Part shown: piece by piece, positions 918 through 39,634 of the stretch
Layout of the letters: the number at the start of each line of letters is the position of its first letter
Position numbering within the stretch: position 1 is the first letter of the stretch
Origin: Microcoleus vaginatus PCC 9802
Lineage (GTDB): Bacteria; Cyanobacteriota; Cyanobacteriia; Cyanobacteriales; Microcoleaceae
Reading direction: 5' to 3'
Assembly: GCA_022701275.1 (NCBI GenBank)
Contig: CP031740.1
Location: 5,035,001 to 5,099,000 of the forward strand
DNA length: 64,000 bases
Position numbers and translations under genes: made by a program
Notes under the pieces: model-generated
Seen by the model: the letters and a program-made list of their open reading frames with translations, nothing else
Told to the model about the DNA's origin: nothing
Databases searched by the model: none

Positions 918-2660
918 ATGAATACGTCTAATACTGAGTCAATACAGACAGAAGTGGAATGGAAGGATATCAACTGGAAAAAAATACAGAGGATAGTCTT
1001 TAAGTTGCAAAAGCGCATATTCAAAGCCTCTCAACGTGGGGATGTCAAGGCAGTCCGTAGGCTTCAAAAGACTTTGATGAAGTCTTGGTCGGCTAAGGCA
1101 TTAGCCGTTCGTCGGGTAACTCAGGATAATCGGGGCAAGAAAACGGCTGGAATAGATGGGATTAAGAGTTTAATCCCCAAACAAAGGCTAGAACTTATAC
1201 ACCAACTGAGGTTAAACCAAAAGGCTAAACCTGTCAGGAGAGTCTGGATTGATAAACCTGGTAGAGACGAAAAACGCCCGTTAGGGATACCCACAATGAA
1301 CGACAGAGCATCCCAAGCTCTGGTAAAAGCAGCCTTAGAGCCGGAATGGGAAGCAAAATTCGAGCCAAACAGCTACGGATTCCGACCAGGGCGGTCATGC
1401 CACGACGCAATCGAAGCAATATATGGAGCAATCAAGCAGAAGCCGAAATACGTGCTAGATGCCGACATTGCCAAATGCTTCGACCGAATAAACCATGAAG
1501 CGCTGCTAGAAAAATTAAATACATTCCCCACCATCCGCCGTCAAATCCGGGCATGGTTGAAAGCGGGAGTGATTGACTGGAGCGAATACGCTAATCGCAA
1601 TAAAAAGAAAGGGTTCAGTCAATCATCTGAGGGAACGCCGCAAGGCGGGGTTATATCGCCCTTGCTAGCAAACATCGCCCTCCACGGCTTAGAAAATCGG
1701 CTACTCCAATACGTTGAAACCGTAGATATGAAAAATAACTACGGCAGACAACAGAGCAAACGCTCTAAGCGAATGACCCTAACAGTAGTTCGCTATGCTG
1801 ATGACTTTGTAATTCTACACAAAGATAAAGCCGTCGTCCAAAGATGTATGCAGATAACAGCAGAATGGCTCAGTGGCATTGGCTTGGAATTAAAACCCGA
1901 AAAAACCAGACTCTCACACACTCTAGTTGAAGAAGGAGGCAACATAGGGTTCGACTTCCTCGGATTTAATGTTAGACAGTTCGAGGTAGGGGAGTATGCG
2001 TCTAAGCAAGGATTTAAAACCATCATCACACCATCCAAGGAAAAGCTGAAAGTCCATCTATCTAAAGTAGGCGACCTAATCGATAAGCACAAAGGTTCAT
2101 CGCGAGATGCCTTAATTGCAACACTAAACCCCGTGATAAGGGGCTGGTCGAACTATTACAAAACGGTTGGCAGCAAAGATATATTCCAACTTGCAGACCA
2201 CATCATCTATCAGCAAATACGAGGATGGGCAATTTACCGTCATGAAAGCGCCGACAAGACTTGGACAACCAAGGGAAATAACAATTGGGTATTCGCCACC
2301 AAAAACGGCAAGCATTGTCTAGCCAAGCATGGCGATACTCCAATAACCAGACACACAAAGGTGAAGGGTGAAATAAGCCCTTATGACGGAGATTGGGTCT
2401 ACTGGAGCAAACGAAAAGGGGAATACCCTGAAACTCCCAAACAATTATCCGAGCTTATTAAAAAGCAAGATGGGAAGTGTTCGCACTGCGGTCTGTACTT
2501 CACGTCAGATTGTCTAATTGAAGTACATCACATAGATAGAAACAGAAGCAACAACAAGAAGACAAATCTGACAGCCGTACATAGACACTGCCACGACATT
2601 ATTCACGCCAAATGGGAACCAAAAGAGTGGGAGATGAGAAGTGATGAATCTTATTTCTAG
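918..2660 (+). CDS. ltrA: Group II intron reverse transcriptase / maturase with C-terminal HNH
   Basis: A 580-aa protein. The RT fingers and palm are clear: GIDG and RPLGIPTMNDRASQALV near the N-terminus, FRPGRSCHDAI, TPQGGVISPLLANIALHGLE, and the catalytic YADD at residues 293-296. A maturase (X) domain follows (RGWSNYYKTV), then an HNH/zinc-type endonuclease domain at about 521-563 (CSHC, then VHHIDRN and HRHCHD). This is the chloroplast-like (CL) class common in cyanobacteria. The protein should assist splicing of the surrounding intron and drive its retrohoming by target-primed reverse transcription. It is uninterrupted and all RT motifs are present, so the intron may still be mobile. The ATG at 918 is chosen because the conserved N-terminus follows it directly. 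Confidence 0.95.
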   Translation: MNTSNTESIQTEVEWKDINWKKIQRIVFKLQKRIFKASQRGDVKAVRRLQKTLMKSWSAKALAVRRVTQDNRGKKTAGIDGIKSLIPKQRLELIHQLRLNQKAKPVRRVWIDKPGRDEKRPLGIPTMNDRASQALVKAALEPEWEAKFEPNSYGFRPGRSCHDAIEAIYGAIKQKPKYVLDADIAKCFDRINHEALLEKLNTFPTIRRQIRAWLKAGVIDWSEYANRNKKKGFSQSSEGTPQGGVISPLLANIALHGLENRLLQYVETVDMKNNYGRQQSKRSKRMTLTVVRYADDFVILHKDKAVVQRCMQITAEWLSGIGLELKPEKTRLSHTLVEEGGNIGFDFLGFNVRQFEVGEYASKQGFKTIITPSKEKLKVHLSKVGDLIDKHKGSSRDALIATLNPVIRGWSNYYKTVGSKDIFQLADHIIYQQIRGWAIYRHESADKTWTTKGNNNWVFATKNGKHCLAKHGDTPITRHTKVKGEISPYDGDWVYWSKRKGEYPETPKQLSELIKKQDGKCSHCGLYFTSDCLIEVHHIDRNRSNNKKTNLTAVHRHCHDIIHAKWEPKEWEMRSDESYF

Positions 2661-2714
2661 CCCCCTAACCCTTAATGGGAAAGAGGTACGCATGACAAGC
2701 GCCAAACAGTCGAG

Positions 2715-2748
2715 GAGCCGGATGATGGGAAACTATCACGTCCGGTTT
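2715..2748 (+). ncRNA. Group II intron domain V (catalytic hairpin), followed by domain VI
   Basis: GAGCCGGATGATG pairs with CTATCACGTCCGGTTT around a GGAAA-type tetraloop, giving the usual 34-nt domain V with the AGC catalytic triad at its base. Directly after it, 2754-2786 forms domain VI: the CGGGGTA/TACCCCG stem capped by GCGA, a GGG/CCC base, and an unpaired A at 2783 as likely branch point. The match to the domain V consensus is by eye but strong. Confidence 0.85.
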
Positions 2749-2790
2749 TGCATGGGAGTTCGGGGTAGCGATACCCCGTTCGACCCTACC

Positions 2791-3504
2791 AAATGGGAAA
2801 GACAATGCGCTTACTGTAGCGCGGAAAATGTACCGCTACAGGTCGAGCATATTCCTCCTAAAGCGTCGGGCGGAACCAATAGAATATCTAATTTATGCTT
2901 AGCCTGTGAACCTTGCAATACCAAGAAAGGGACTCAGGATATCAAGATATTCTTAGCAAAAAAGCCCGATGTTTTGAAGAAAATCTTGGCACAAGCTAAG
3001 CGCCCATTAAAAGATGCCACTGCGGTCAACTCAACCCGATGGGCTTTGTTTGAGCGCCTAAAAGAGACAGGTAAAATGATTATCACGGGTTCTGGCTGGT
3101 TGACCAAATTCAACCGCATACGGTTGGAATTACAAAAAACTCACTTCTTTGATGCTGCTTGCGTAGGTGATACGTCTAATATTTCCGTATTAGCAAATCA
3201 GCCCCTCAATACCAAAGCTACGGCGCATGGTTCAACGCAGATGTGTCGCACCGATAAGTTTGGATTCCCTTCTCGGTAAGTTCCTAAATTTAAGTTTGCA
3301 AAGGGTTTTCAGACAGGCGACATCGTAAAAGCCGTTGTTACTTCGGGCCAGAAGATTGGCACTTATACGGGTAGAGTTGCTGTTCGCTCCTCTGGTAGTT
3401 TTAATGTGTCCTCAGCCCAGGGCTTAATTCAAGGAATCAACCACAAATATTGTTTTTATATTCATCAAAAGGATGGTACAATTATGGATTTTGAGAGTTA
3501 TTGA
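2791..3504 (+). pseudogene. iscB: IscB 3' exon (HNH, RuvC-III, C-terminal domain) with an internal stop
   Basis: Begins exactly at the intron 3' end with KWERQCAYC, the first zinc-binding pair of the HNH domain. VPLQVEHIPPKASGGTNRISN and the second CxxC (LACEPC) follow, then RuvC-III with THFFDAACVG. Reading stops at TAA 3277-3279 after DKFGFPSR. The same frame then continues to TGA 3502-3504 as VPKFKFAKGFQTGDIV... and ...KYCFYIHQ, the usual IscB C-terminus. The stop is therefore a single nonsense change, probably at a Tyr codon (FPSRY), which removes about 75 residues. The ATG at 2641 is not a real start, since it lies in the RT gene and intron. A protein ending at 3279 would keep all nuclease motifs but lose the C-terminal target-recognition region. 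Confidence 0.88.
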
Positions 3505-17608: not shown

Positions 17609-18784
17609 AGTACGTCGGCGCGAAAAAACCTAACTATGTTAAAATAAGTAAACACAGAGAATACATCTACTAAGGTAACTCAATATATGGGCGCTAGATT
17701 AAGAGTATTTCTTACTCAAAAGCAAGACAAAACCCTATTAGAACTGAGAACTGCGGATGTACCACAAAAAGTAAAAGATCGAGCAGAAGTAATTAGATTA
17801 AATGCACATGGCTGGTACGTTGAAAAAATAGCTGCTCATTTTAATTGGACTTCACAAACAGTGAGAGAGGTTTTACATAAATGGCAGAAGCTAGGTATGG
17901 AAGGGATGCAGGGAATTAGCAGGTCGAGGGGGAAAACCCAAGTGGAAAGAAGAAGACATAGAGTTTTTAACAGAATGTCTCAAAAATGAACCACGTACAT
18001 ACAACAGTGTTCAATTAGCTCAGAAATTAGAAAAAGAGCGTTCTATCAAATTAAGTCCCGACCGATTAAGACGAATACTAAAAAAAAAGGGTTTATTTGG
18101 AAACGAGCCAGAAAAAGTCATAAAGGAAAACAAGAAGTTGCAGTACGCCAAATCAAACTCTTCAGACCTAGATATGTTGGAATGGGGGGCTGCTGCGGGA
18201 GAAATTGACTTAAAATATTTGGATGAATCAGGGTTTTGAGCTCCCAAGCGAACCTAGTTACACTTATTACAAACGAGGTGAGCAAAAACGGCTCGAACAA
18301 ACCAAGAGGCGTGGTCGTAGATTAAGTATTGTAGGGCTTTTTCAACATGAAATCAGCTTTGTTTACGGTTTGGTAATTGGGGGTGTTGATCGAAAAGCTT
18401 ATATCAAAATGATGGAGTCAGAAGCCCAGTCAGCGTCTCAGAGCAAGCGAATTAGAGTAATAGTACAGGATAATGGTCCCATACATCGATGTCATGAAGT
18501 CCAACAATTATGGTCGAAATGGGAAAGCGAGGGTTTATATATCTTATTTTTACCGAAATATTGCTCAGAAATGAATCCCATAGAATTGGAGTGGCAACAT
18601 CTCAAAAAAGATGAGCTAGCAGGACAAATGTTTGAGGATGAATTAGAGCTGGCTTATGCCGTAATTAATGGGGTAGAAGCTAGAGGAAAAAAAGGAAACT
18701 ACGCTACAAAACGCCTTAAATTTAGCTCTGAGCGCCCTACTTAATATTTTGTTACCTACTTGTAAATTTCCCCACCGACTTACT
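17609..18784 (+). mobile_element. IS630-family element type B, copy 2 (nested in element D)
   Basis: A 1176-bp element beginning AGTACGTCGGCGCG with TA at 17607-17608, and ending 18784 before TA 18785-18786. Same family as 4795-5967, inverted. Its insertion splits the D-type transposase inside the sequence TGAGLSKII. Confidence 0.85.
17687..18744 (+). pseudogene. IS630-family transposase (type B), multiply frameshifted
   Basis: The same protein as at 4844-5889. The first frame (17687-17989) holds the HTH region and breaks after KLGMEGM. A second (GKPKWKEEDIEFLTECLKN to LDESGF) reads through the A9-GGG run. The third (18223-18744) holds VIVQDNGPIHR and MNPIELEWQHLK. At least two indels are private to this copy. 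Inactive. Confidence 0.85.
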
Positions 18785-22597: not shown

Positions 22598-23387
22598 AAC
22601 CGCCTTGGCGGTTGCTATAATAGGCAGAGTTTTATACTTTAACTAATAAATGACTAATCGAATTGATATGGCCCAAATCAAGAGAGACTTAGAGTAACAA
22701 AAAGTTTTTCTATGTGTGATAAATAATGCCTAAGTCTTGTATTTTCTCCTTCAACGCGGGTCATATAAGTTTTACTAACAATGTGGTCACTCTCGTCAAT
22801 AAACTGGGGATAAACCACGTAACCATCCGTAGCATAAAAAAAACATTTCCACCCTTTAATAATTTTCCATAAGGGCTTAAATGTTTCTGCGGATCTGTCA
22901 CCTATAGTCCCGGCTAAAATTCCCGCAAACCCTTTATTCACTGCCGTCGCTCGCCAAATTTTGTTTTTTTTATTGCCCACAAATGTTTGCAATTCATCTA
23001 TTTGTGCCACTGCGGGAATCTCGTCATAATTTGGCTGTTCAGACAAACTTAACCCAGCCAATTTAACCCAATTAATAACAGTGTTATGACTAACACCAGT
23101 TAGTCTTTCTATCCGACGAAAACCATTCCCTTCAAGGTAAAGATGCAGGCAATATTTTTTGACAGAATCGGGATAGCCTAGGGGCGAGTAGCTATCAATA
23201 AACTGGCGGCGACAGTTTTTACAAAGATAATTTTGTTTACCTCTTTTCTGACCATTTTTCTTAAGATTACTAGATTGACATTCAGGACACATCATAGCTG
23301 AATTTTCTTTGACTGTTAGCGCTCAGCATACCACAACTGTGCAACGCCAAAACGTTCCCGACTATTGTCTTAACCGCCAAGGCGGTT
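22598..23387 (-). mobile_element. IS1-family element, near complete
   Basis: About 790 bp, a normal IS1 length. It lies between AACCGCCTTGGCGGTT (22598-22613) and its exact reverse complement (23372-23387). Because these 16-mers are themselves nearly palindromic they could be flanking repeats rather than the true ends. No clear target duplication was seen. Confidence 0.6.
22678..23295 (-). pseudogene. IS1-family transposase, frameshifted near its C-terminus
   Basis: 205 aa from ATG 23295: an N-terminal zinc finger (CPECQSSNLKKNG, CKNCRRQF), an HTH (GFRRIERLTGVSHNTVINWVK), and a catalytic region with AQIDELQTFVG (Asp), YATDGYVVYPQF (Asp) and TRVEGENTRLRHYL (Glu). After RHYLSHIEK the frame shifts; the expected KTFCYSKSLLIWAISIRL continues one base out, consistent with loss of one A in GAAAAAC, and then a stop. 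All DDE residues precede the lesion, so partial function is conceivable but unlikely. Confidence 0.85.
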
Positions 23388-30319: not shown

Positions 30320-30982
30320 ATGGTAACAACAACATCAACTCCCGTAGAGCAGCAAACTACCCCAGAAAACCGAGTTATTTTAAAAGGTGTCAGTTGGTCA
30401 ACTTTTAAAGCATTGCTGGCAGATGTTGGGGACGATAGAGCTTGGAGAATTGCTTACGATGGAGGAGTATTAGAAATCAGGATGCCACATCTAGAACATG
30501 AAGTTCCGAAAGGACTGATAGAAAGCTTTATTGAAGCTACAGCAGACGAGCTAGAAATCGAAGTGATGAAAGCTGGTTCTCTGACTCTGGAACGGGAAGA
30601 TTTAACTCGTGCTGTCGAACCTGATACTTGTTTCTACATTCAAAATGAAGCCAGCGTCAGAGGTAAAAGAGATATCAACCTCCCAGAGGATTTGCCGCCT
30701 GATTTAGCAATAGAGTCGGATTACACGAATTCTTCAGTTAATAAAGATTCCATATATGCTGCTCTTGGTGTTCCCGAACTTTGGAGGTATCGGCGGGAAT
30801 CTCTGCAAGTTTATCACCTTGTAGATGGGAAATATGAAATGTGCGATCGCAGTTTAGCTTTTCCTTTTTTACCGATTGCAGAAATTCCCGGTTTCATCGA
30901 ACAAAGCCGAACAGTCGGACAGCGTGCGGCAGTGCGTTTGTTTCGGCAAAGAATTAGAGAGATTTTGCCTAGTCAAAGTTAA
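30320..30982 (+). CDS. Uma2-family (DUF820) restriction-endonuclease-like protein
   Basis: 220 aa, the normal length. PD-(D/E)xK fold features: PDTCFYIQNEASVRGKRDINLPEDLPPDLAIESDY, then KDSIYAALGVPELWRYRR, the standard Uma2 core. Cyanobacterial genomes hold dozens of these and their role is not settled. It lies 52 nt upstream of the four-gene ATPase/helicase operon on the same strand, but a TATAAT motif in the gap suggests separate transcription. Confidence 0.9.
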   Translation: MVTTTSTPVEQQTTPENRVILKGVSWSTFKALLADVGDDRAWRIAYDGGVLEIRMPHLEHEVPKGLIESFIEATADELEIEVMKAGSLTLEREDLTRAVEPDTCFYIQNEASVRGKRDINLPEDLPPDLAIESDYTNSSVNKDSIYAALGVPELWRYRRESLQVYHLVDGKYEMCDRSLAFPFLPIAEIPGFIEQSRTVGQRAAVRLFRQRIREILPSQS

Positions 30983-30992
30983 CCTCAAGTTA

Positions 30993-30998
30993 TATAAT
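30993..30998 (+). promoter_or_regulatory. Possible -10 box of the four-gene operon
   Basis: A perfect TATAAT 37 nt before the ATG at 31035, with no convincing -35 box at 16-18 nt. It may drive the operon independently of the Uma2 gene. Confidence 0.35.
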
Positions 30999-31034
30999 AC
31001 AGCATATTGCACGTCTATTTTGTAAAATTTACCT

Positions 31035-31874
31035 ATGGTTGAAATCAATCCTTTCCCTGAAAATTTTTTAGAGCAAGCCAGAGAGCAAGCAGCCTCCACC
31101 ACCCAAAGAGAAAAAAAACTCCAAGCAGATTTGGAAGAAATGAAAGACTTTCGCAAGGTATGGGAGGACCTTAACCTATTCCTTCATAAACAGTGGCCGC
31201 TGCACTGCCTGGATTTATTAGATAAGCACAAGCCCCTTATAGATAGGATTAGGGTTGATCAGTCCCCTGAAGTTTCCCTACTGGATGATATTTATCGGGT
31301 AGCCAAAGAGCGGGCTGAAGAGCTTAAGCCACATCGGTTTCCAGCCTATTTAGAAAAAGCTTGTCAGGCGACTAGCTTACAGTTAGATCAAGACAGTCGT
31401 CATCCCCGCTACAAGTTTGAGAAAGGATTCTTTCAGCTTGATATAGATGACAAAAAAAAAACAGCAAGCTTGTCTAACTATGAATCATCAAAAATGGTTG
31501 AATTCCCTGCTGACATAGGAGCTATAGTTGAGGTTGTACAACGAGAACACAAGAGGATTTTTGGGCGAACTTTTGATGGCAAAAAGTTTCTTAAAAAGCT
31601 CCTATCCCAATATTTGGCAATACTAAAGAAAGATAAACTATCAGATGGCTCAACCATTCCTATTCGCAATATCACGCAACGTCTCGGAAAGAACGAAAGT
31701 GGATTTCGTACAGATGAATTCCTCATCGACCTTTCACGGCTGGTTGAGCAAGGGCCAATAGAGATTGATGGCTGCCGTCTGGAATTACAACAGACGAAAG
31801 AAACTAATCAAGGAATGCTTCTTCACATAGAGCAAAAACGCTATATCGGTTTCATGTTCTTTAAAAAGGTGTAA
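31035..31874 (+). CDS. Unrecognised protein, first gene of the ATPase/helicase operon
   Basis: 279 aa, soluble, charged. The N-terminus is coiled-coil-like (FLEQAREQAASTTQREKKLQADLEEM). The middle has a Phe/Lys-rich block (RYKFEKGFFQLDIDDKKKTA). The C-terminal ~110 residues look like a helical/winged domain (KKFLKKLLSQYLAILKKDKL, IPIRNITQRLGKNESGFRTD, DLSRLVEQGPIEIDGCRLEL). I do not recognise the family. It ends 2 nt before the next gene, so it is co-translated with the ATPases and probably is a structural or adaptor subunit of their complex. Not obviously a nuclease or methylase. Confidence 0.75.
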   Translation: MVEINPFPENFLEQAREQAASTTQREKKLQADLEEMKDFRKVWEDLNLFLHKQWPLHCLDLLDKHKPLIDRIRVDQSPEVSLLDDIYRVAKERAEELKPHRFPAYLEKACQATSLQLDQDSRHPRYKFEKGFFQLDIDDKKKTASLSNYESSKMVEFPADIGAIVEVVQREHKRIFGRTFDGKKFLKKLLSQYLAILKKDKLSDGSTIPIRNITQRLGKNESGFRTDEFLIDLSRLVEQGPIEIDGCRLELQQTKETNQGMLLHIEQKRYIGFMFFKKV

Positions 31875-31876
31875 TT

Positions 31877-33130
31877 ATGGCTCAGCGCATTGCTACTCAG
31901 GTTGTTGAGTCACTTCGCAAAGGTACTCCACCCCAGCGTGGTGTTGATTTATATTCGGTAGGAAATGAAAAATTAATCGCAGGGATTAAAAAATTTCATT
32001 TAAGCGGTATAGAAGAAAAGGGAATCATCCGTTTTATCAGCGGTTCGTGGGGAGCCGGAAAAACCCATTTCTTTAGGTTGCTTCGGGAAGTCGCCTTTCA
32101 AAATAACTGCCTAGTCTCTAATGTACAGTTGGATAAAGCAGCAGCTTTAAATAAGTTTGAGAGCGTTTTTTATTCTATTTTGCGGAATATTTCAACGAGA
32201 TCTTACTTAACTGAAAACGAAGCAGCACCCTTTGGGCAAGTTTTAAAAGAATCTTTAGCTTATTTATCTACAGGCAATTGTAAAGTTAGTAACGAAGTTT
32301 CCTACGAGGATTACGTTAAAGCTAGAGAAGCTCTGATTCTCGATAGGAGCATTGATATTGATTTTAAAAAGATGATTCAAAAATACTGGGAAACTTTTCT
32401 GCCTGAATCCCCCGATCTAGCTCTTCAAGAACAAAATAGAGCTGAAATTCTCCAATGGTTCAGTGGAGAAGGTAGCGTGGCCATGTACCGGAAGCGATTT
32501 GAAGTTAACAAAATTGTTAATAAAGACAATGCGAAACTAATGCTACAATCCCTTGCTGGATTTGTGAGACTTTCCGGCTACAAAGGATTACTCATCCTGT
32601 TTGATGAGGCTGAACAGGCTTACTCTATTATGCGTAAATCCTCTCTACGGGATGCTCACAACAATTTGTTATCTCTGATCAATAATATTGAAGCCCTGAA
32701 GGGTCTGTTTCTCATCTATGCAACCACACCTGACTTTTTCACAGACCCCAAACACGGAATCATAACCTATGGAGCTTTAGAAGGACGAATCGGCAAGCCA
32801 GAGCAACAACGTCAACCGAGAGCATTAGATACTATCTGGAATTTTGATCAGGTAGTAACAGAGCTATCAGACTATCAGAGTGCGGCTAAGAAAATCCTGA
32901 GTATTTATGCAACTGCTTATCCAGAAGCGACACGAGAATTACCTTCTGAAGTAAAAGTTGAATTTTTTGTAAAAGAACTTTATGAAATTCATCCGGCCCT
33001 CAGTGGTGTTCGCTTTTGGCGCGTCCTAGTAACAGCTTTGATTACACATTTTGATGACCATCTTGAAGGAGAAACCAGGTCAGCGGAAACTATATACGAC
33101 GACGTAATGGATCATCTTAGGGAGGAATAA
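31877..33130 (+). CDS. BrxD-like P-loop ATPase (DUF2791 type), first paralog
   Basis: 417 aa. The N-terminal VVESLRKGTPPQRGVDLYSVG leads to Walker A GSWGAGKT (residues 56-63). Walker B is LLILFDEAEQ, with D243 E244. The C-terminal half contains FLIYATTPDFF (sensor-like) and GRIGKPEQQRQPRA. This layout matches the BREX ATP-binding family (BrxC/D, DUF2791). The ATG follows the previous stop by 2 nt. It is paralogous to the next gene (same opening ESLR.G.PP and the same ATPase order), so the two may form a hetero-oligomer. Likely role: ATP-driven clamp or loader on DNA. Confidence 0.82.
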   Translation: MAQRIATQVVESLRKGTPPQRGVDLYSVGNEKLIAGIKKFHLSGIEEKGIIRFISGSWGAGKTHFFRLLREVAFQNNCLVSNVQLDKAAALNKFESVFYSILRNISTRSYLTENEAAPFGQVLKESLAYLSTGNCKVSNEVSYEDYVKAREALILDRSIDIDFKKMIQKYWETFLPESPDLALQEQNRAEILQWFSGEGSVAMYRKRFEVNKIVNKDNAKLMLQSLAGFVRLSGYKGLLILFDEAEQAYSIMRKSSLRDAHNNLLSLINNIEALKGLFLIYATTPDFFTDPKHGIITYGALEGRIGKPEQQRQPRALDTIWNFDQVVTELSDYQSAAKKILSIYATAYPEATRELPSEVKVEFFVKELYEIHPALSGVRFWRVLVTALITHFDDHLEGETRSAETIYDDVMDHLREE

Positions 33131-33133
33131 TCG

Positions 33134-34333
33134 GTGAATGTAGAAGTGCAGCGAGTCATTGAATCTCTTCGTCTTGGAATTCCCCCTGATGGTCATGTAC
33201 GCTACTTCACAGTAGGTAGACTGTCAGAGATTACGGAGCTGACCGCTAGGCTTCAACAAGGAAAAACCGATGCGCTATTGCTAAAAGCTAACTACGGTTC
33301 TGGCAAAAGTCACTTGTTGCGATTTATCCGTGAAACCGCTTTAAAAGCAAATTTTGCTGTTAGTTCCGTAACACTGGATGCTAAATCTGCTGTCCGTTTC
33401 AATCGCATGGATCAGATGTTGGGTGCAGTCTGGCGTGGTTTAGAAATTCCAAACAACTCTGAAGATAGAGGTGTCCGCGCTTTCTTCGACTGGGTTTGCG
33501 AACAAGCACGTGAGAGTAAAGGAACAGCAGGTAAGCAATGGCAAAAAATAACGAATAACGGGCAATGGGATTTTTCTCAATCCCTTGAATCTCCAGCTAC
33601 TTTTATTGCCTTGCGCGCTTGGATGAGCGGAAGAGTCAATAAATATTTAGTAGAGGATTTGCTGTTTCAAAAAAGTAATTATAAGACACAGGATCTTTAT
33701 CAAGAGTTGATACATAAAAGCCGGATGTGCTACCGAAAAGAACTAGAATTAACTCGCACAATTAAGTGGCAAAACTATACAACAAAGGCACTTTTGTTTG
33801 ACTTTAAATCTCAAGGTTACGCTCAGTCTTGGGCAGCAATTAGAGATATTCATACCCTTGCTTGTGCTTCGGGAATGAGGGGGATTATCATACTTTTCGA
33901 TGAATTTGAGGATGTTTTATCTAACATTACAAATATAGCCCATCAAGAAATGGCATTTCAAAATCTATTCCAGTTTTTTGCAGGTCAGCAATTTCAGGGC
34001 ATGAGTTTTTTTGCTGTGACACCAGAATTTGTCAGCAAGTGCAGGAAGCGTCTGATTAGTAAGGGTCGGTGGGATTATGACTATGCTCAATTGGATAGGC
34101 TTTCTACCTTTGAAATGAGTCCCCTAGAGATCAGTCAGTTACAAGAGTTAACCATAAAGATTAAGGAGTTTCATGGAATTGCTTATGGATGGGATACTAA
34201 TTCATCGGCTATTGAACTAGGTCTGAGTGCGGTTGTCAAAAAAAATGGCTCTATTGCAGTTCAAGACCGTACTCGTCAAACGATTAAAGAAGTTGTGAAG
34301 TTTTTAGACCGACAGCTTGAGGAAATAGAATGA
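33134..34333 (+). CDS. BrxD-like P-loop ATPase (DUF2791 type), second paralog
   Basis: 399 aa from GTG 33134, 3 nt past the previous stop; no other start fits the conserved N-terminus (VIESLRLGIPPDGHVRYFTVG). Walker A NYGSGKSH (53-60); Walker B IIILFDEFED with D256 E257; FFAVTPEF sensor strand. The gene ends overlapping the helicase start by 4 nt (ATGA), implying translational coupling. In type II BREX a BrxD ATPase is paired with helicase BrxHI in the same way; here there are two ATPases. Confidence 0.85.
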   Translation: MNVEVQRVIESLRLGIPPDGHVRYFTVGRLSEITELTARLQQGKTDALLLKANYGSGKSHLLRFIRETALKANFAVSSVTLDAKSAVRFNRMDQMLGAVWRGLEIPNNSEDRGVRAFFDWVCEQARESKGTAGKQWQKITNNGQWDFSQSLESPATFIALRAWMSGRVNKYLVEDLLFQKSNYKTQDLYQELIHKSRMCYRKELELTRTIKWQNYTTKALLFDFKSQGYAQSWAAIRDIHTLACASGMRGIIILFDEFEDVLSNITNIAHQEMAFQNLFQFFAGQQFQGMSFFAVTPEFVSKCRKRLISKGRWDYDYAQLDRLSTFEMSPLEISQLQELTIKIKEFHGIAYGWDTNSSAIELGLSAVVKKNGSIAVQDRTRQTIKEVVKFLDRQLEEIE

Positions 34334-36444
34334 GTAGCATTGAATTGTTAGAGCGCCGTGTTGCTTCAGCATTTTATGGAAGTTTTACAACTTTGCGTCC
34401 GGTACAAGAAGCTGCTATTGAACTGCTAGTAAAGGGTCAAAATATTGTCCTCTCTTCTGGTACGGGTTCTGGGAAAACTGAGGCTGTTTTGGCTCCGTTG
34501 CTAAGTCGTTATTGGCGAAAAGCTGTCACAACTGAAGCCTTGATTCTGATTTATATTGCCCCTACGAAGGCACTGGTGAACGATTTAGGCAAGCGGCTGT
34601 ATCCGCCATTGGATAAATTGGGACTTCGTGTTGGCATACGTCATGGCGATCGCGATGATTTAGTATCTGGGCAAACACCCCATGTTCTACTAACAACGCC
34701 AGAATCGCTGGAAGTGCTACTTTTCCGCAAAGATGCAACTTTACAAACAGTTTGCGCTGTAGTTATTGACGAGGTGCATCTTCTCTACAACACGCAGAGA
34801 GGATTGCAACTATCTGTCCTACTTCAAAGACTCCAACAAAGCTTAGGACAAGAGTTGCAATGGGCTGCCTTATCTGCAACAGTGGGGAGACTTTCAGATG
34901 TGCGCGATTTCTTGTTTGGATCAGCAGCTAGTGCTGAATTCCTTCAATTTCCTGCTCATCGTTCTATTGATGCCCATGTGCGGCATATTGCTGATGAAGC
35001 CAGCTTTCTGAAGCTCATTTGCAAGTTGACAGCAGGGAGACAGACTAAACTATTGATCTTTACTAATTCTCGCCGAGAATGTGAACGGTTAGCAGGAAGT
35101 TTGCAGCATGAAAAAAGGTTAACTTCCCTCATTTTTACTCATTACTCATCTCTCTCGCCAGAAGTTAGAGTGGAAACTGAGGAAAAATTTACTGCTGCAA
35201 GAACTGCGATATGTATTGCTACCAGTACATTAGAACTTGGTATTGACATCGGTGATATTGATGCTGTGATTCTTTGGGGATTACCCAGCGGGGTTGAATC
35301 ATTCCTACAGCGAATTGGTCGCAGTAATCGACGCGCCAATAAAACAAATGTTATCTGCCTAGTACCGGATAATTCCGATCATATAATCTTTGAGTCGTTG
35401 CGTTTTATTGCTCTTGTCGATGCAGCGAAAAAAGGTGAGTTACCCATTCGCTCTCCCTATGAATTATTTGGAGCGATTGGGCAACAGTGTCTCAGCGTCA
35501 TTGCATCGGATGGTGGTCGCTTCACTAGAATTGCAGAATTGTGCAAGCTATGCGATCACCGAGAGTATCTAGATCGCTCATCTATCGAAACAATACTTGG
35601 TGAATTAGCCAATAATAGTTATCTTCAGCGTCACGGTTTCAAAAATCAATATGGTGCCGGTGCAAACCTGTACAAGCTTGTCGATTATAGAATAATCTAC
35701 GGAAACTTTGGTTCGGGGTCTCAAACTATAGAATTATGTTACAAATCTAAAGTTTTAGGTGAAGTTCCTGCTGAGAACTTACTCAGAGTTAGACCAGGAA
35801 TGCTGGTACGTTTTGCAGGTAAAATTTGGCGGGTACGCAAGGCTTCGATGGCAGGTATCCTTGTTCAACCATCATCTGAAAAAGGTAGTGCCATTGATTT
35901 TACCTATGGGGGTAGAGGAATTAGCACAGATGCTTTTGTTTGCGATCGTGTCTGGCAAATCATCCACAATGAGGAATTGCCGAGTGAGGTTTTAACCCGG
36001 AGCCTACACGAAAGTTTAGAAAAAGCGAGAGATAACCTGCGAAGGATTTGTCGGATTGACCAAATTCCCTATATTCGTTCATCTAAAGGTATCCGCTATT
36101 TTACATTTGGAGGTTACTTGGTCAATAAGGCTGTAGCTCTGATTAATAAGCAACTAGATTACAAAGCTGATGATGTTTCGCTGCTGGTAATATCACCCAT
36201 TAACTGGGCATCTATTCCCACAGAAGCACAAGCCTACGAATCAGTTTTTCATCGGCTGTTAGAGACATCTTCTGAACGATCTATTTATCAAACATTGCTA
36301 CCTGCTGAGCTTCAATTGCGCGAATTCCTGCAAGATTGGTTAAGAAATGAGACAGTCCGCAGAGTATTGGTGAGATTGGCTCATTCTGATCCGGTGCTCG
36401 CCTCTCCTCAAATAGAAGTTTTATTTCCGGCTACTTATCGCTGA
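34330..36444 (+). CDS. Lhr/BrxHI-like superfamily 2 DNA helicase
   Basis: 704 aa. Motif I SSGTGSGKTEA (42-52), Ia APTKALVNDL, Ic TTPESLEVLL, motif II DEVH (147-150), motif III SAT (182-184), motif V TSTLELGIDIGD, and motif VI QRIGRSNRR (about 327-335). The C-terminal ~350 residues resemble Lhr-type accessory domains (RVRPGMLVRFAGKIWRV). No nuclease domain is visible. It probably unwinds or translocates on DNA with the two upstream ATPases. The stop at 36444 is followed by only 67 nt before the convergent miaA, so the operon ends here; there is no methylase, PglZ-type phosphatase or BrxA/B in the window. Confidence 0.88.
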   Translation: MSSIELLERRVASAFYGSFTTLRPVQEAAIELLVKGQNIVLSSGTGSGKTEAVLAPLLSRYWRKAVTTEALILIYIAPTKALVNDLGKRLYPPLDKLGLRVGIRHGDRDDLVSGQTPHVLLTTPESLEVLLFRKDATLQTVCAVVIDEVHLLYNTQRGLQLSVLLQRLQQSLGQELQWAALSATVGRLSDVRDFLFGSAASAEFLQFPAHRSIDAHVRHIADEASFLKLICKLTAGRQTKLLIFTNSRRECERLAGSLQHEKRLTSLIFTHYSSLSPEVRVETEEKFTAARTAICIATSTLELGIDIGDIDAVILWGLPSGVESFLQRIGRSNRRANKTNVICLVPDNSDHIIFESLRFIALVDAAKKGELPIRSPYELFGAIGQQCLSVIASDGGRFTRIAELCKLCDHREYLDRSSIETILGELANNSYLQRHGFKNQYGAGANLYKLVDYRIIYGNFGSGSQTIELCYKSKVLGEVPAENLLRVRPGMLVRFAGKIWRVRKASMAGILVQPSSEKGSAIDFTYGGRGISTDAFVCDRVWQIIHNEELPSEVLTRSLHESLEKARDNLRRICRIDQIPYIRSSKGIRYFTFGGYLVNKAVALINKQLDYKADDVSLLVISPINWASIPTEAQAYESVFHRLLETSSERSIYQTLLPAELQLREFLQDWLRNETVRRVLVRLAHSDPVLASPQIEVLFPATYR

Positions 36445-36511
36445 AAGGTTCAATATGATCTCACAGCTTTCTTAGATCATGGTCGTCCTCACTACGAACT
36501 TATTAACAGGA

Positions 36512-37435
36512 TTATGTGCGATAGGCAAAATCTTCTTTGACAAATTGCTGCACTCTCTGCCAAACTCGCTCCAATAAATCTGGTGCGCTAACATCAAACC
36601 ATTCAATTTCAGGATACGCTCGAAACCAGGTGCGCTGTCTCTTCGCAAATTGCCGCGTGTGCAAAATTGTTAATTCTTTGGCTTCTTCAAGCTTAATCTC
36701 GCCAGCCAAATATTGTTTCATTTCCTGATATCCCAGCGTGTTCAACAGTGGCAAGTCGCAGCCGTATTTTTTACACAAATATTCTACTTCAGCAATCCAA
36801 CCGCGTTCTAGCATTTGTTCGGTGCGCTGTTTGATCCGATCGACCAAAACATCGATCTGGCAATCCAACCCTATTTGTAAAATAGGATAATTGGGAGGAT
36901 TTTCGCCCTGCTGTTCGGAAATAGAGCGACCCGTGACATAAAATACTTCCAGTGCTCTTAAAGTTCTTACTGGGTCATTGAGGTGAATTTTCTCAGCGGC
37001 AGAGCGATCGACTTGCTGCAACATCGCGTAACATTGAGATTGTCCGAGTTCTGCAAGTTGCGATCGCAATTCGGGCATCGGCGCTACCCTCGGAATTTTC
37101 AAACCGCGCACGATCGATTTAATATATAAGCCTGTCCCTCCCACCAACAACAGAGGAGGAGACAGGGGAAAATCGACATCAGCAATTAATTTTTGAGCTT
37201 GCTGCTGGTACTCTGCTAGTGTCAGAGTTTCTGTCGGATCGCAAATGTCAATTAAGTGATGCGGTACACAAGTGCGATCGACCGCCGTCGGTTTTGCGGT
37301 TCCGATGTCAAATTCGCGGTACACTTGACGGGAGTCCGCACTCAGGATCGAGGATTGCAGTCGCGAAGCCAAAGCCAAAGCCACTCCAGACTTCCCCGTC
37401 GCCGTCGCCCCGCAAATCGTAATTAATCTAGGCAT
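36512..37435 (-). CDS. miaA: tRNA dimethylallyltransferase
   Basis: About 307 aa from ATG 37435 (MPRLITICGATATGKSG). MiaA adds a dimethylallyl group from DMAPP to A37 of tRNAs reading UNN codons. P-loop GATATGKS; SADSRQVYREFDIGTAKP (catalytic Asp region); GGTGLYIKSIVRGL; and near the C-terminus TRQFAKRQRTWFRAYPEIEWFD, all diagnostic. Length is normal. It is convergent with the ATPase/helicase operon and stands alone. Confidence 0.95.
   Translation of the reverse strand: MPRLITICGATATGKSGVALALASRLQSSILSADSRQVYREFDIGTAKPTAVDRTCVPHHLIDICDPTETLTLAEYQQQAQKLIADVDFPLSPPLLLVGGTGLYIKSIVRGLKIPRVAPMPELRSQLAELGQSQCYAMLQQVDRSAAEKIHLNDPVRTLRALEVFYVTGRSISEQQGENPPNYPILQIGLDCQIDVLVDRIKQRTEQMLERGWIAEVEYLCKKYGCDLPLLNTLGYQEMKQYLAGEIKLEEAKELTILHTRQFAKRQRTWFRAYPEIEWFDVSAPDLLERVWQRVQQFVKEDFAYRT

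Positions 37436-37633: not shown

Positions 37634-39634
<2,001 letters not shown>

Follow-up and report, generated by a model that had tools for sequence, protein, structure and literature searches.

The 64,000-nucleotide (nt) stretch of Microcoleus vaginatus PCC 9802 analysed here (contig CP031740.1, positions 5,035,001 to 5,099,000, forward strand; called the window below) is part of a 6.7-Mb single-contig genome. At window positions 31035 to 36444 lie four genes, all on the plus strand, which an earlier note made from the letters alone had described as a tight operon. The open reading frames (ORFs) and the intergenic gaps of 2, 3 and -4 nt were reproduced. The four genes, referred to below as the operon or the cassette, are as follows.

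31035..31874, + strand: gene 1 (X), 279 amino acids (aa), unclassified
31877..33130, + strand: gene 2 (ATP1), 417 aa, BrxC/D-family ATPase
33134..34333, + strand: gene 3 (ATP2), 399 aa, GTG start, divergent second BrxC/D-family ATPase
34330..36444, + strand: gene 4, 704 aa, superfamily 2 (SF2) helicase of Lhr/BrxHI/SngC-like type

Gene products of the operon

Profile searches of each protein supported the view of the earlier note that the operon encodes two BrxD-family ATPases and a BrxHI-like helicase. The Pfam family PF10923 (BrxC_BrxD) was matched by both ATP1 (E 1.6e-52) and ATP2 (E 1.2e-19), and the scores against the NCBIfam BrxD equivalog model were 121 and 50 bits respectively, far below the cut-off of 350. 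The PADLOC model of SngB also matched ATP1 (6.6e-33) and ATP2 (2.2e-12), ranking in each case below the BrxD model. We take GAGKTH and LILFDEAE in ATP1, and GSGKSH and ILFDEFED in ATP2, to be the Walker A and Walker B motifs. Among PDB sequences, ATP1 found short matches to ABC proteins only, and ATP2 found none.

Gene 4 showed the Pfam domains DEAD and Helicase_C, and its segments GTGSGKT, DEVH, SAT and QRIGRSNRR are presumably the helicase motifs. The PADLOC model of BrxHI matched it near full-length (8.8e-99, 330 bits, residues 19-678), followed by that of SngC (5e-82, 275 bits, residues 18-677), and the nearest NCBIfam model was the ligase-associated DNA damage response helicase, at 227 bits against a cut-off of 850. 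Its best PDB relatives were the ATP-dependent DNA helicases 5v9x and 7lhl, which we take to be Lhr enzymes. Nothing in Pfam, PADLOC or NCBIfam placed genes 1-4, or their relatives, in a described system.

The product of gene 1 had been called unrecognised, and it stayed so: X had no match in Pfam, PADLOC or NCBIfam at E<=1, its best match among PDB sequences was to a designed protein (E 0.011), and it showed zero similarity to the ATP1 profiles. Structure prediction, which the earlier note had proposed for this protein, gave a winged-helix-like layout as a hint, at a mean predicted local distance difference test score (pLDDT) of only 51 for an AlphaFold (AF2) model from two sequences, with values below 50 over most of the C-terminal part. 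The predicted layout comprises a long N-terminal helical part, a few strands in the middle and a C-terminal strand-helix-helix-strand-strand arrangement at about residues 207-267, so that the C-terminal part would probably fit a winged helix. Comparison of 16 X sequences showed that the positions shared by 85% or more of them are concentrated in the C-terminal half, and no nuclease motif was found among these positions. X is predicted, probably, to be a DNA-binding adaptor or specificity subunit. It also evolves fastest of the four proteins, because its identity to the Aulosira homologue described below is 57%, as against 77, 74 and 71% for genes 2, 3 and 4. Two other identities were rejected. 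X as a piece of SngA gave an hhalign probability of 0.2 against the first proteins of five Shango-type loci, and BrxB and two other proteins encoded upstream in the Aulosira bacteriophage exclusion (BREX) locus showed zero similarity to it.

The ratio of nonsynonymous to synonymous substitution rates (dN/dS) against close copies, each value being a single pairwise estimate, was lowest for gene 2 (0.12) and highest for gene 1 (0.39), with gene 3 at 0.23 and gene 4 at 0.19-0.28; that of miaA, the gene downstream, was 0.18. Judged by these comparisons, the cassette genes are under purifying selection.

Recurrence, phylogeny and insertion site

The same four genes were found together, intact and with the same order, in two other organisms. 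Among 72,556 plasmid records, X and ATP2 each matched two, and these were the same two records: plasmid3 of Aulosira laxa, with gaps of 1, 4 and -4 nt between the genes, and a 27-kb plasmid of Desulfomonile tiedjei, with gaps of -4, 2 and -4 nt. Gene 4 matched 982 plasmid records, and among the 60 matches listed only those of Aulosira and Desulfomonile exceeded 32% identity. Across 386 genomes of the phylum, the search with gene 4 gave 1568 bits for the window's own genome and no score above 180 bits for any other, so the gene-4 helicase clade was not seen without X there. The co-occurrence check proposed in the earlier note therefore came out in its favour, and the pairwise dN/dS values together with the recurrence in the same order in other organisms indicate that the operon is more than a chance arrangement. 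The wording of the earlier note that the products are surely one system was a little strong; the order recurs elsewhere, but one relative keeps gene 2 alone (see below). X was searched in the genomes of one phylum, and its sole non-cyanobacterial record came from the plasmid collection. Four scans of viral contigs gave zero relatives of X or ATP2 and one helicase match at 34%, and ATP2 had zero matches in 50,697 phage records.

Neighbouring genes were scanned for chosen ORFs. On the Aulosira plasmid, BrxB, BrxC, PglX, PglZ, BrxD and BrxHI stand directly before the cassette, 172 bp away and on the same strand. The Desulfomonile plasmid also carries AbiEi, AbiEii and a Cas4-like nuclease gene; no further BREX gene is annotated on that plasmid, and the chromosome was not searched. 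In G122, a genome of the window lineage, two HsdM-type methyltransferase genes are divergent from the cassette.

X was also found in a shorter arrangement. A search with the single X sequence matched 5 of the 386 phylum genomes, and a profile of eight X proteins matched 12 of them (three weakly) as well as 7 of 378 genomes of the order, the two draws overlapping. Outside the window lineage (G000, G010, G122), there were seven strong profile matches in the phylum draw and four in the order draw. All 11 loci (G116, G265, G271, G310, G044, G064, G051, G465, G562, G555 and G540) showed X followed by two BrxC/D-family ATPases on one strand, with gaps of -32 to +84 nt; they are not all independent, G116/G265, G044/G064 and G540/G555 being same-genus pairs. 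No helicase of the gene-4 clade was seen at them, as checked by whole-genome search for seven loci and within the 18 kb fetched for G562, G555 and G540, with G465 ending at a contig edge just past the second ATPase. Since X and two ATPases lack that helicase at these loci, the helicase would be a partner of a wider unit. As for the neighbours of these triads, a gene for a CHAT-TPR protein of 991 aa (L042 11271-14246) starts 100 bp after the triad of G310, a homologue of Druantia DruE lies on the opposite strand in G051, starting at a distance of 4.7 kb from X, and a Fic protein a few genes away in G265 matches the PADLOC SoFic and candidate models. Weak X matches in G041 and G053, with no ATPase gene beside them, and in G166, which was not fetched, were not counted as triads, nor was G204, where ATP1-like and ATP2-like genes accompany a 297-aa protein that matches X by profile only (hhalign probability 71).

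An ATPase tree of 31 proteins and a helicase tree of 14 were built, both small and unrooted and to be read with a long-branch warning. The Shango references were four loci in which a protein annotated as TerB N-terminal is encoded together with an ATPase and a helicase, and a Klebsiella locus whose first gene is annotated as an ATPase only and which was taken as Shango by layout. Further references were a Burkholderia ATPase-helicase pair without annotated TerB, an Adhaeribacter helicase, one BREX-2 locus and the Aulosira BREX-2 locus. The ATP1 proteins of the window lineage formed a clade (100/100) apart from BrxD (100/99) and SngB (100/99), and ATP2 was placed together with the second ATPases of the triads (97/94). 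Gene 4 fell into a clade of its own (98/100), apart from BrxHI (100/99, two BREX-2 proteins) and from the clade of SngC and the Burkholderia helicase (100/99). X and ATP2 link the window lineage with the three-gene lineage; for ATP1 such a link is not clear. One family of the order, taken as Nostocaceae, had 32 matching genomes with BrxD-like ATPase frames, mostly of about 445 aa (L013-L018 and L048 9298-10638, among others). Two of these ATPases were placed in the tree as sister to SngB (100/100), and in G059 a helicase match starts about 1.2 kb after the ATPase match. The Burkholderia plasmid (L072 3810-8262) carries its Shango-clade ATPase-helicase pair after a 254-aa protein unlike SngA or X.

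The corresponding site was fetched in eight genomes of the same genus and compared with the window. Two further features were recorded at the locus.

30983..36536, no strand: the cassette as an insertion between a Uma2 gene and miaA, the block being absent from G002 and G012
30970..30998, + strand: sigma-70-like promoter match with TATAAT, weak evidence

The match of G002, which like G012 is without the cassette, ends at window position 30982 and restarts at 36537. The inserted cassette measures 5.5 kb, and its site is variable: relatives lack the cassette, keep a decayed form of it or have something else in its place. G010 carries it, split over two contigs (L046, L083). In G013 (L080 12136-13470) gene 2 is the sole remnant, an open frame of 444 aa that is 77% identical, with a pairwise dN/dS of 0.37. 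G001, G004 and G008 carry instead one gene of 2047-2084 aa (L084 5080-11223, L086 5323-11577, L087 5031-11213), which in the copy scanned, that of G004, encodes a kinase-AAA16-GAF-histidine kinase protein; this replacement suggests that the locus before miaA is variable. The contig of G005 stops about 0.9 kb beyond miaA and has zero cassette match. X was present in 2 of 24 genomes of the genus, the window's genome included, and no convincing repeats were found at the insertion ends. The closest named contigs, with ATP2 94% identical, belong to Microcoleus sp. CAN_BIN18 and one Microcoleaceae genome. A one-base difference breaks the frame of gene 4 in CAN_BIN18 (L003, a metagenome assembly), and in UBA9251 (L004) a segment that begins close to the end of X and reaches the middle of ATP2 is missing. 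In G122, ATP2 is split in two pieces around a 460-aa frame, an IS66 transposase gene then follows, and the last part of ATP2 and gene 4 are missing within the 20 kb fetched.

The TATAAT of the promoter match sits 36 nt 5' of the gene 1 ATG, inside the inserted DNA when compared with the empty-site relatives; sigma-70-like sites in the scanned region numbered 9, with 11.2 expected by chance. The 5' neighbour of the cassette is a Uma2-domain gene, a putative restriction endonuclease by Pfam name, which is kept at empty sites too, and a gene that we take to be msrP also lies upstream. On the 3' side stand miaA (IPPT, Pfam) and then gyrB (by alignment to the L003 gene). Apart from Uma2, no known defence gene adjoins the window copy, the flanking genes having been scanned in part. 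The window gyrB is without an insertion of about 1.3 kb that is present there (39006-39011) in several relatives, and the gyrB of L003 (5764-9009), of 1081 aa, contains an intein splicing domain. Elsewhere in the window, a group II intron-type reverse transcriptase with maturase domain and then an overlapping HNH endonuclease gene lie at 918-3279, and transposase fragments or genes of DDE_3 and IS1 type lie in the left half at 18223-18744 and 22678-23295.

Proposed function and its alternatives

We tentatively propose, at a little less than an even chance, that the operon is a mobile anti-phage (or anti-plasmid) defence cassette working like the ATPase-helicase half of type II BREX and that of Shango. 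This proposal draws on the occurrence of the same four genes, with the same order and tight spacing, on cyanobacterial and desulfobacterial plasmids, and on lineage neighbours that include BREX-2, HsdM-type methyltransferases and AbiEi/AbiEii. In the three-gene lineage, the nearby DruE homologue of G051 and the CHAT-TPR gene downstream in G310 point the same way, as do the matches of the ATPases and the helicase to proteins of BREX-2 and Shango. The patchy distribution, the losses and the fastest divergence in X are also consistent with it.

From these data we infer a defence function in which X, as a fast-evolving DNA-binding adaptor, would bind or recognise invading DNA or a DNA-protein structure on such DNA. 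ATP1 and ATP2, members of the ORC/Cdc6-like BrxC/D family, might form a mixed AAA+ oligomer on X and act as a loader, which would load or activate the Lhr/BrxHI-like helicase. The helicase could then translocate on DNA and block replication or strip proteins; no nuclease was recognised in the operon. The idea of a loader is taken from PMC12839542, the available parts of which present BrxD and BrxHI as a dyad linked in type II BREX and possibly acting as a helicase loader, and describe what BrxD does in that system as uncharacterised.

Several findings weigh against the defence proposal. The window locus itself is no defence island, being flanked by the msrP-like gene, Uma2, miaA and gyrB, and the cassette copies in several relatives are damaged. 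The lone ATP1 in G013, with X, ATP2 and the helicase gone, would not be predicted by a strict four-part machine. At the three-gene loci, the scanned neighbours are mostly housekeeping, metabolic or unknown genes. In the ATPase tree, the ATP1 of the window lineage falls, weakly (89/79), with BrxD, SngB and others and lies apart from the first ATPases of the triads, whose branch is long; such a placement would argue against a simple one-unit history. The model of X is of low confidence, and its winged-helix fit is a hint and no proof. Lhr-type helicases also act in DNA repair.

A broader form of the proposal, somewhat unlikely in our estimate, is that X and two ORC/Cdc6-like ATPases make up an immune core so far unrecognised, whose partners can be exchanged; next to BREX-2 and Shango it would be a third branch, ranging over Cyanobacteria and Thermodesulfobacteriota. 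Such a core would combine a recognition subunit of winged-helix type with a heteromeric switch of two AAA+ proteins, and the switch would fire effectors that differ between lineages: here an Lhr-type helicase and, in the lineage of G310, perhaps a CHAT protease. That the ATP1 proteins of the two lineages do not group together lowers the probability of this reading.

The main rival to defence is a module for DNA repair or replication restart, or for plasmid or island maintenance, in which the AAA+ pair would load an Lhr-type helicase at damaged or stalled DNA. The best PDB relatives of gene 4 and its nearest NCBIfam model would suit such a role, as would the two cassette copies on plasmids and the lone ATP1 that persists in G013. 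However, the BrxHI and SngC models outscore the repair model, the module is rare, patchy and readily lost, and the lineage neighbours include known defence genes. We regard this rival as unlikely.

It is less probable still that the operon is a variant of Shango, with X in place of the TerB-domain protein and the ATPase duplicated. The ATPase-helicase logic is shared and the SngB and SngC models match, but neither the helicase nor either of the ATPases belongs to a Shango clade, ATP2 groups instead with the second ATPases of the three-gene loci, and X is unlike the first proteins of all five Shango-type loci. A detached accessory module or relic of type II BREX is very improbable: the Aulosira cassette does lie directly behind a BREX-2 locus, but that plasmid has its own BrxD and BrxHI, in other clades, besides the cassette, the window's genome is without PglZ, and the Desulfomonile plasmid has no other annotated BREX gene.

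Comparison with known systems

PbeABCD was the first candidate considered and was rejected. It is likewise a four-gene cassette with a helicase and an ATPase, in its case linked to phosphorothioate modification, but the Pfam make-up of genes 1-4 differs, and the accessible parts of the published descriptions set it apart: the PbeA helicase bears a PLD domain, PbeC is an ABC-type ATPase, and PbeB and PbeD are small (PMC6459918, PMC10853773). According to the same partial texts, PbeABCD is reported to block viral replication without cleavage (PMC6459918), and cleavage is argued for in PMC10853773. In the literature on BREX, Shango, PbeABCD and DUF2791, supplementary files not covered, no description of a system like the present one was found, and the available parts of PMC12839542, PMC12458937 (a preprint on the YprA helicase), PMC10250203 (Shango) and PMC10952713 make no mention of one.

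The earlier note had likened the operon to the BrxD-BrxHI part of type II BREX without a BREX core. The PADLOC matches support that likeness, and Shango, which it did not mention, is nearly as close. As in type II BREX, a BrxC/D-family ATPase gene stands directly before a BrxHI-like helicase gene; type II BREX has one ATPase, whereas the operon has two, together with X, no other BREX gene and clades of its own. The absence of a core held for the window and its genome, where PglZ (PF08665) had 0 matches at E<=0.001 in all 6.7 Mb and a complete BREX system is therefore lacking; it did not hold for the Aulosira copy, which sits behind a BREX-2 locus. PF10923 had five matches in the genome, three of them pieces of the operon and two weak (24 and 20 bits) in very long frames. 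A scan of genes 1-4 and of two flanking genes did not show PglX or PglW, for which no genome-wide search was made.

Shango, made up of the TerB protein SngA, the ATPase SngB and the helicase SngC, is similar in being a compact ATPase-then-helicase operon found on plasmids. The present operon differs from it in its two ATPases, its separate clades, and X in place of the TerB protein; X had no match in Pfam or PADLOC and no similarity to the first proteins of the five Shango-type loci, four of which are annotated with a TerB N-terminal part, and a TerB protein was not searched for elsewhere in the genome. The three-gene loci are similar in that homologues of X and ATP2 stand on either side of a BrxC/D-family ATPase, with order and strand as in the operon, and differ in that no helicase of the gene-4 clade was seen there and the first ATPase is not clearly orthologous to ATP1.

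By sequence comparison, the operon thus appears to resemble parts of BREX-2 and Shango and to belong to neither. It uses a BrxD-BrxHI-type pair within 5.4 kb and without the BREX methylase or PglZ, as Shango does, and could show what the ATPase and helicase do alone and whether the helicase gets loaded on foreign DNA. It might also reveal by what means a form with two ATPases selects its target when it brings along no DNA modification enzyme.

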